Shown: positions 42,133-45,100 of the stretch, one piece after another
Numbering within the stretch: position 1 is the stretch's first letter
Layout: every line of letters begins with the position of its first letter
Assembly (NCBI RefSeq): GCF_018320785.1
Contig: NC_054881.1
Span: forward strand, 13,702,275 to 13,766,274
From: Cheilinus undulatus
Taxonomy: Eukaryota > Chordata > Actinopteri > Labriformes > Labridae
Length of the DNA stretch: 64,000 bases
Reading direction: 5' to 3'
The notes under the pieces: generated by a model
Told to the model about the DNA's origin: nothing
Databases searched by the model: none
The model's input: only the letters and a program-made list of their open reading frames with translations
Program-made: the position numbers and the translations under genes

Positions 42133-45100
42133 TCAATGTCTTTCCAGAAGTACAATGATCAGATTCAATAAATAACTTTTAGCCTTGCCTGTGGACATAA
42201 TGAGCCCTTAATCCCACAGACTGGCTGAATCTCAAACTCCTCCCTAAACCCTGAGCTCACATTGACTTAACTGACTGCACCTGGAAAGTGATTGAATGAG
42301 TGAGGCTGCAAGGGCTCGAAGTGGTAGAAACAAGAATAGGACAGCCCGTTGTTTTTTTTTATTGACAGCTGGCATCTTGCAGAGCTTAAAACAAAGATAA
42401 AACAAAGAACAACAAAGAAGGCTGTTTTATATAATATACTTACAGGAAAAATACTTCTTTTTTTTTTTTTTGCAACATCCACCCCATTTTGCACCTTCCA
42501 TATTTATTGTTTACAATTTCGCTCTTTTCACTTTACTTTTGTAGCGTTTACCAGCGGACAATCTCTGTCATACGTCACAATGCAATGAACTGTGGGTAAT
42601 TCCCTCACACTAAGTCTGCAGCAATGCCCACTCACGGAAAGGGTGCATGAAGGGCTCAAAAAGTCAGCGAGAGATCCCTCACACACTTTATGATTTGACA
42701 GTGCCTGAGAACAGCAGCAGCAAGCCTCATATCCAGGCTGACAATTATCTCTGCCTTCCAGCGAAGAGAACACCTCTCACACACTGAAACTTTTTTGAAA
42801 GTCTTTCAGGGGATTCGGTATGGATGCTTGTTAGCGCCACCCCTTGTCAACCGTTCCTCTCACTATTTGAGTCCCATCAGTTCAATATGTACATCTAGGT
42901 GCCACTACCAGAGGCAAGGGGCAACAAATGTCGACAGCAGACCTGCCTACAACTCATCCTTCTCATCTTGCTCGGTTTCTGCGCCCTCTGGTGGTGGTCC
43001 TCCTGCACTACCGTAAAGCTTGCTAATGATGGGTTGGACCACCTCTTCAAGCTCCTTCTTCTTGGCCTGGAAGTCCTCCAGCTCAGCCTCCTGGTGTGAC
43101 TCCATCCACTCAATCTTCTCCTCCGCTGCCTTCTCAATTGCTTCCTTGTCCTCATCTGACAGCTTGCCACCCAGCTTCTCCTTGTCACCAATCTGGTTCT
43201 TCAGTGAGTAAGCGTAGCTTTCAAGCTCGTTACGGGCATCAATTCTCTCCTTCAGCTTCTTGTCTTCATCGGCGAAGCGCTTAGCATCGTTCACCATGCG
43301 CTCAATGTCCTCTGGCGTCAGGCGATCCTGGTCATTTGTGATGGTGATCTTGTTCTTGTTGCCCGTGCCTTTGTCCTCAGCTGTGACACGCAAGATACCG
43401 TTGACATTGATCTCAAAGGTGACTTCGATCTGTGGTACGCCACGAGGGGCAGGAGGGATGCCAGTCAGATCGAATGTGCCCAGCAGATGGTTGTTTTTTG
43501 TCAGTGGACGCTCACCTAGAAACAGAATCCATAATTAAACATGCAAGTTTTTCATTTTTGCTCTGAACTCAAAGAAATGAAGTTGATCTACATTTAAATA
43601 GTGTTTTTGCTTACCTTCATAAACCTTTATGGTGACAGTAGGCTGGTTATCAGAGGCTGTAGAGAAGATCTGAGATTTCTTAGCAGGCACCACAGTGTTC
43701 CTGGGGATCAGTTTGGTCATCACTCCTCCAACGGTCTCAATACCAAGAGTCAGGGGGCACACATCCAGAATAACAACTCCTGAAAGAGAGCAAAATGTTT
43801 AGTAAACCAATCAAAAGCTAGTTACAGTAAACACTGTGTGAGAGGAAGATGACCTACCAGGGTCCTCCTCTCCAGAAAGCACTCCAGCCTGCACAGCAGC
43901 TCCATAAGCCACAGCCTCATCAGGGTTAATACCCCTGGAGGGCTCTTTGCCATTGAAGAACTCTTTCACCAGCTGCTGGATTTTGGGGATACGGGTGGAG
44001 CCTCCAACCAGAACAATCTCATTAATATCAGACTTCTTCAGGTCAGCATCTTCCAGCACCTTCTGGACAGGCTTCATGGTGGAACGGAACAGGTCCTGTT
44101 ATAAAAGAAAGATCAAAAGGTTAAAAGATATTTTTATAAATTCAGGTTTAAATTGTGTTCAAGTCACTGTTTTGATAGCTTAGGATATAGTTTAATAGTT
44201 TACCATGTTGAGCTCTTCAAACTTGGCACGGGTCAGGGTCTCAGAGAAGTCTTCTCCCTCAAAGAAGGACTCGATCTCAATGCGAGCCTGGTGCTGGGCG
44301 GACAGTGCTCTCTTTGCCTTCTCAACCTCACGACGCAGCTTCTGCACAGCACGGTTGTCCTTGCGCACATCTTTGCCTGTCTTCTTCTTGTACAGCTTGA
44401 TGAAGTGCTCCATGACGCGCTGGTCGAAGTCCTCACCTCCAAGATGGGTGTCACCGTTGGTTGCCACCACCTCAAACACACCATTGTCAATCGTCAGCAG
44501 GGAAACATCGAAGGTGCCACCACCCAGATCAAACACAAGAATGTTCTTCTCGCCGTCCCTCTTGTCCAGACCATAAGCAATGGCAGCAGCAGTTCTAAAG
44601 AATTGACATAATGAGATCAGGTTAATAATGAGTAGATGATAAAATTTCTTCTGTTTCCAAATACAACATACAATTACATTTTTACACTTACGGCTCATTG
44701 ATGATTCTCATGACATTGAGGCCAGCGATGGTACCAGCATCCTTGGTTGCCTGACGCTGAGCATCATTGAAATAAGCAGGGACGGTGACCACAGCATGTG
44801 TTACCTGAGGAAGAGATTAAAACATTAGATGACAGTTCTACATTTTAAACTACAAGTTGTGTAATGTTTGAATTGTATGTTTTTACCTTCTTGCCCAGAT
44901 AAGCTTCAGCAGTCTCCTTCATTTTAGTCAGCACCATGGCAGAGATCTCCTCAGGAGCAAATGTCTTCATCTGTCCACCACCAATGTCAACCTGAATGTG
45001 GGGCTTGTTCTTTTTCTCAGTCACCTAGAGAAAAAATTAATCAATTTAATATCTAGGGTGATTCTCAAGCGTTAGCCAACAACCTTGACACTCCATACCA

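Follow-up and report, generated by a model that had tools for sequence, protein, structure and literature searches.

What becomes of an essential chaperone when one of its two gene copies loses a near-invariant residue of the segment that joins its two halves? The question is raised by a window of 64,000 nucleotides (nt) of the Cheilinus undulatus genome (the whole stretch of DNA analyzed here). The window holds a tandem duplication with two complete hspa5 (BiP) genes, copy A and copy B, both on the minus strand; the interdomain linker of copy B is ordinary and that of copy A is altered. The Hsp70 linker is among the most conserved allosteric elements known, and a natural full-length BiP without the linker Asp, lying beside an ordinary copy, would be a ready-made test of the role of that residue; it would equally test how an essential chaperone, once duplicated, decays or takes on a specialised role. 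The reading that we favor, and hold with somewhat more belief than doubt, is that copy A is a young tandem BiP duplicate in which constraint on the linker and the substrate-binding half is relaxed while the ATPase half still looks constrained. The statistics behind this reading are modest.

The interdomain linker of copy A is altered at conserved positions

The two linkers are located as follows (residue numbers throughout are those of copy B; the human BiP number is that of copy B plus 2):

43763–43867, minus strand: copy A, altered linker EDPG-VVILD, interrupted by intron 6 (43780–43857)
58108–58215, minus strand: copy B, ordinary linker EDTGDVVLLD, interrupted by intron 6 (58128–58205)

The original prediction, made from the sequence alone, held that copy A had undergone a Thr to Pro change, the loss of the linker Asp and a Leu to Ile change, and codon comparison with copy B bears this out. 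Thr409 (human T411) is replaced by Pro (ACT to CCT), the GAT codon of Asp411 (human D413, DnaK D388) is lost, and Leu414 (human L416, DnaK L391) is replaced by Ile (CTT to ATT); a silent change, GGT to GGA, affects Gly410 beside the lost Asp codon. The change straddles intron 6, and thus does span an exon junction as had been proposed. The splice sites are intact, again in keeping with the prediction: they are of the GT-AG type, and the intron 6 donor scores 7.9 bits in copy A and in copy B (with a matrix of approximate frequencies). The frame is likewise open to the KDEL end, giving 653 residues with no internal stop.

An alternative acceptor restoring the Asp, which the original prediction had named as evidence that would speak against it, was sought in copy A across intron 6 and 30 nt into exon 7. 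None of those tried brings the residue back: the acceptor at −54 leads to stops in frame, that at −38 shifts the frame, and that at +3 removes the Gly as well. Note that this last site (43777–43782) is a new tandem CAGGAG acceptor, created in copy A by the 3-nt loss itself, whose use could remove the linker Gly too.

The shortening of the linker alone lies within the natural range: the spacer from the conserved Gly405 to the VxLL strand is five residues long in copy A and six in copy B, and that of E. coli DnaK, with four, is shorter still. The copy A linker nonetheless departs from the canonical [D]VxLLD pattern, with a Gly or a gap at the Asp site. How exceptional this is was estimated from a survey of 120 DnaK/Hsp70 proteins, namely E. 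coli DnaK together with 79 loci from genomes and 40 from viral contigs. These loci came from two sets of 80, kept as the best of at least 580 and of at least 517 relatives, the whole being bacteria-heavy and chosen by conserved peptides. The 41 loci dropped out of 161 (the genome locus L059 and 40 viral-contig loci) had no DLGGGT-bearing open frame longer than 350 residues, and a search of the viral contigs with copy B as the sole query returned no relatives. The linker Asp was found in 119 of the 120 proteins, replaced by Asn in one and missing in none, and the Leu in all 120. The position of Thr409 is variable, being occupied by V, R, K, M or I. In the same genome, the Asp is kept in all five of the other distinct linkers recovered by a pattern search covering 48 loci, a pattern that divergent linkers would escape.

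The three linker events are clustered to a limited degree. When 13 events were placed at random, three fell inside some six-codon window in 3.7% of simulations; given nine events in residues 409–654, the share was 7.2%. For exactly these six linker codons P = 0.0002, a value that would be fair only if the linker had been named beforehand, which it was not. No published account of this linker change turned up, within a partial coverage that included no search aimed at it.

Copy A and copy B are complete genes in a tandem duplication

The limits of the duplication units given below are those of BLAST matches, and the coding sequences were obtained by spliced translation:

41239–52056, no strand assigned: duplication unit 1, with the 3' exons of a Kelch gene, hspa5 copy A, its promoter and upstream flank
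55981–63893, no strand assigned: duplication unit 2, with a broken copy of the Kelch-gene exons, hspa5 copy B, its promoter and upstream flank
42947–45608, minus strand: coding sequence of hspa5 copy A, eight coding exons (45493–45608, 45128–45359, 44887–45024, 44692–44804, 44204–44594, 43858–44095, 43615–43779 and 42947–43515), 653 residues, KDEL end
57289–59957, minus strand: coding sequence of hspa5 copy B, eight coding exons, 654 residues

Each gene has seven GT-AG introns, no internal stop and a frame open to KDEL. Since copy A retains its introns and its open frame, it shows none of the marks of a pseudogene (stop, frameshift or intron loss). The protein it encodes is 98% identical to that of copy B and matches the Pfam HSP70 model almost from end to end (residues 28–632). 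Both proteins end in EKDEL and begin with a hydrophobic leader (the latter judged by eye); human BiP, too, ends in KDEL. The best match of copy B in PDB is human BiP (6asy), with 1259 bits versus 874 for HSPA1A.

DNA and protein searches of the surrounding assembly (1.17 Gb in 46 contigs) yielded no hspa5 other than copies A and B. Indeed, the last exon of copy B gave eight DNA matches, of which two are hspa5 (98–100% identity) and the other six reach 69–80%, while residues 331–546 gave 28 protein matches, at 90–100% for both copies in the window and 45–74% elsewhere.

Replacements in copy A are concentrated outside the ATPase domain

Twelve replacements and one deleted codon separate copy A from copy B, alongside 23 synonymous changes; the ratio of replacement to synonymous rates (dN/dS) is 0.15. 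Beyond the linker, copy A carries ten replacements: six lie in the substrate-binding domain (residues 443, 473, 502, 529, 544 and 596), two in the ATPase domain (99 and 103), and two in or near the leader (V7L and D17N). The human BiP chain used for comparison covers residues 23–631 of copy B, so that V7L and D17N lie outside it and could not be polarised. At all 11 comparable changes (ten replacements and the deletion, between residues 99 and 596) human BiP has the state of copy B, which indicates that these 11 arose on the branch leading to copy A (0.001 by a two-sided sign test, and 0.004 if the linker trio is taken as one event). The ATPase domain received two of the 11, and the other nine fall in the linker and substrate-binding domain (P = 0.005; counting the trio once, 0.022).

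Several of the sites hit are highly conserved. Among the 120 proteins of the survey, the copy B residue is shared by 118 at D502, 115 at E544, 107 at T443, 103 at R99, 77 at D473, 55 at D103, 14 at V596 and one at N529. We considered that the replacements might be confined to tolerant sites, and rejected this: the mean share of the copy B residue is 0.59 at the ten changed sites versus 0.50 in a neutral simulation, a difference that leans the opposite way and is not significant.

The duplication contains its own internal control, in the form of the broken exons of the Kelch gene (which we take to be, probably, rabepk) at 55981–56660 in unit 2, whose open counterpart lies at 41239–41949. Over 128 codons (384 bp) these exons show a ratio of replacement to synonymous changes (N:S) of 13.5:8.5, together with a stop codon, a 2-nt frameshift and the loss of 6 nt. 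The ATPase domain of copy A (2:13) differs from this control (P = 0.003), the linker and substrate-binding domain (8:10) are indistinguishable from it (P = 0.34), and the hspa5 gene as a whole (12:23) gives a borderline value (P = 0.055). No stop or frameshift is found in the 1962 bp of copy A, versus two in the 384 bp of the control (P = 0.027). In a neutral model with half of the synonymous changes (11.5) assigned to copy A, about 28 replacements are expected and 12 are seen (P = 0.023); if only six of the 23 are so assigned, 12 replacements are not unusual (P = 0.42). Taken together, the rabepk control, the neutral model and the conservation of the changed sites point to constraint kept on the ATPase half and relaxed elsewhere.

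The perfect stress-response element and the predicted first-exon donor of copy B have no intact counterpart in copy A

The regulatory features of the two copies are as follows:

60721–60739, minus strand: perfect endoplasmic reticulum (ER) stress response element (ERSE) of the copy B promoter, CCAAT-N9-CCACG, a short way upstream of the TATA box (about 60700)
49094–49112, minus strand: copy A counterpart of this element, CAAAT-N9-CCGCG, with both half-sites changed
48944–49222, minus strand: core promoter of copy A and the 5' portion of its first exon (92% identity to 60573–60849), with no counterpart of the copy B donor
60551–60672, minus strand: predicted non-coding first exon of copy B, with donor AAG/GTATGT (9.5 bits)
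46124–48943, no strand assigned: insert in copy A intron 1, a Tc1-like element and a 1.2-kb dispersed repeat, replacing 60489–60572 of copy B

With the ERSE consensus given in PMC5890977, one perfect element was found in copy B (59950–61300 scanned) and none in copy A (45600–49600 scanned). The core promoters of the two copies are otherwise similar, both with a TATA box, and the promoter region of copy B finds no match beyond itself and two segments of copy A. The start of the first exon of copy B was assumed to lie 25–30 nt past the TATA box, and the putative donor of this exon lies within the stretch (60489–60572) that the insert replaces in copy A. The Tc1-like element (approximately 46125–47756) has a DDE_3 domain and terminal inverted repeats; the dispersed repeat (47757–48943) has 55 matches in the genome, the best other full-length copy being 87% identical.

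Three further observations concern these flanking and intronic regions. A short element with inverted ends, GTGTTCTGTCA...TGACAGAACAC, lies in intron 1 of copy A at 45912–46078, where copy B has unrelated sequence. The distal promoter of copy B includes about 300 bp (60850–61157), with a CCAAT box at 60861, for which BLAST gave no counterpart in copy A. Between the two units, two adjoining open frames at 52111–52911 resemble, by eye, the first open reading frame (ORF1) of a long interspersed nuclear element; the first of them has no Pfam match. As for the Kelch gene, Pfam Kelch models match two of its three 3' exons.

Copy A as a probable BiP variant with altered regulation and weaker coupling

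In the scenario that we favor, selection on the linker and the substrate-binding half was relaxed after the duplication, a complete protein still being encoded. Copy A would be induced by ER stress less than copy B or not at all, and its product, if made, would bind and hydrolyze ATP. The Gly in place of the linker Asp, the Ile in place of human L416 and the changes at human T445, D504 and N531 (DnaK T420, D479 and G506) would then make transmission between the ATP state and peptide release weaker or retimed. Copy A would be tolerated because copy B supplies the ordinary BiP function, and it is probably heading to loss or to a minor role. Copy A would thus probably be a BiP that is regulated differently and whose coupling is weakened, as far as can be read from the DNA.

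Published work on DnaK helps to gauge the extent of this weakening. An oxygen of D388, listed as D388 (O), contacts K214 N in the ATP state (Table 2 of PMC6843406). If this is the backbone oxygen, as we read it, a Gly could supply it, and coupling in copy A may be weakened rather than abolished. Complete uncoupling is not to be assumed, because the linker strand remains hydrophobic and its length stays within the natural range. Further along, our alignment, read with the published DnaK numbering, pairs T443, D473 and D502 with DnaK T420, D450 and D479, three of the residues listed in a simulation study as differing in protection according to nucleotide (PMC4664246), and N529 with G506, a hinge residue (PMC4022485). 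We claim no enrichment at nucleotide-sensitive or hinge residues, since such lists are long.

The original prediction considered a chaperone with changed allostery possible, and this stays plausible given the near-invariance of the Asp and the Leu. A specific retuning of the linker is another matter: the linker change is explained no less well by a loss of constraint affecting the linker and substrate-binding half in general, because copy A also carries ten further replacements, an altered ERSE counterpart and no equivalent of the stretch bearing the predicted copy B donor.

Points against the favored reading and rival explanations

Several observations weigh against the reading just given. 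Compared directly, the N:S ratios of the ATPase half (2:13) and the substrate-binding half (9:10) differ at a borderline level (P = 0.064), which becomes 0.12 with the trio as one (7:10) and 0.070 for point changes alone (2:13 versus 8:10). The counts are small, the domain split was picked after the data were seen, and the synonymous changes are not assignable to the A or B branch for want of outgroup fish DNA. Partial gene conversion between the copies, which blurs the counts, is likely, since noncoding divergence within the gene (43 of 945 positions, 4.6%) is below that of four flanking stretches (5.9, 6.7, 7.2 and 8.3%, a range that leaves out the rabepk intron, with 20 of 158 positions differing under guessed coordinates and 13 of 149 in another comparison). 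As regards regulation, copy A keeps a TATA box, a TGACGT motif resembling a cAMP response element (49202) and an ERSE-like CCAAT-N9-CCAAC at 49145 that is identical in copy B, so that some stress response could persist, to judge by these elements. Other donors are also present in copy A (6.5 bits in the repeat, the best between the promoter and the Tc1-like element, and 8.7 bits inside the latter), and through them the gene could be spliced another way.

That a conversion boundary explains the uneven spread of the replacements was considered separately and rejected: noncoding sequence next to the ATPase exons (introns 1–5, 22 of 522) and next to the later ones (introns 6–7 with the 3' untranslated region, 21 of 423) is similarly divergent.

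Four other explanations were weighed. Copy A may be an ordinary working BiP that tolerates its linker, with the Gly providing the backbone contact, the Ile keeping the strand hydrophobic and the spacer staying within the natural range. The four-residue spacer of DnaK, the D388 (O)–K214 N contact if read as backbone (PMC6843406) and the intact frame and splice sites all agree with this; the near-invariance of the Asp and the Leu in the survey, the Asp in all five other linkers that the pattern, blind to divergent linkers, matched in the genome, the additional change at Asp502 and the altered ERSE counterpart do not, and we regard it as possible but unlikely. Slightly more doubtful is an adaptively retuned BiP, in which altered coupling was selected and regulation became less tied to the ERSE, for example as a client holder or as a sink for J-proteins and exchange factors. 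Three events within six linker codons, two of them at invariant or nearly invariant positions, a protected ATPase half beside a changing remainder and the absence of stops and frameshifts relative to the rabepk control would suit such a protein, and a BiP linker mutant that loses allostery and forms fewer linker-mediated oligomers suggests that the linker can be a control point (PMC4608358). However, the N:S ratio of the linker and substrate-binding domain is at or below that of the broken rabepk exons, so that there is no accelerated replacement; the trio clusters at the 4–7% level only, unless the linker is named beforehand; Leu to Ile is conservative; and the scattered replacements and promoter changes fit drift. 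Its fullest form, a selected and allosterically detuned BiP that keeps a constrained ATPase half, has a linker and substrate-binding half released from the usual rules, still engages J-proteins and nucleotide, couples poorly to clients and is off the perfect ERSE, we would credit a little less again; if true, nature would have produced an equivalent of the linker mutants made in the laboratory.

It is very improbable that copy A has evolved as a neutral pseudogene ever since the duplication and owes its open frame to luck. Its replacements do strike highly conserved positions without bias, its promoter is altered, the copy B first-exon donor has no counterpart in it, and the neutral model with six synonymous changes on copy A would accommodate the replacements seen. 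On the other hand, the model with 11.5 such changes leaves a deficit of replacements, a neighbor five-fold shorter has acquired two disabling changes when copy A has none, and the ATPase half differs from the same control; a wholly neutral pseudogene was rejected on the replacement deficit and the rabepk control. We give least credence of all to an artefact of assembly or sequencing. Near-identical tandem copies are easily mixed, and the change is read from the assembly; yet the contigs are long, the 3-nt loss and three substitutions lie outside long homopolymers and on both sides of an intron, and copies A and B differ throughout and have distinct flanks. We thus retain relaxed constraint on the linker and substrate-binding half of a young duplicate as the preferred reading. 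A silent or dying copy A would be no more than an ordinary duplicate; an expressed one would amount to an experiment on allostery made by nature.

Comparison with known systems

Duplication of hspa5 in teleosts is already known: Table 3 of PMC8646100 lists two copies for Nile tilapia and large yellow croaker, the other nine vertebrates tabulated having one each, so that C. undulatus resembles these two fishes in having an extra copy. Human BiP (6asy) has the same plan as copies A and B, with an ATPase domain, a linker and a substrate-binding domain, and matches copy B, not copy A, at the 11 comparable positions. Relative to it, copy A is without D413, L416 has become Ile and T411 Pro, and eight more replacements are found in the stretch compared. 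The closest laboratory parallel is the BiP mutant in which the linker strand LVLL is changed to ADDA, for which loss of allostery and fewer linker-mediated oligomers are reported (PMC4608358). Like this mutant, copy A is changed within the linker strand, position 416 included; by contrast, its strand is still hydrophobic, and it is the flanking Asp that has been lost instead.
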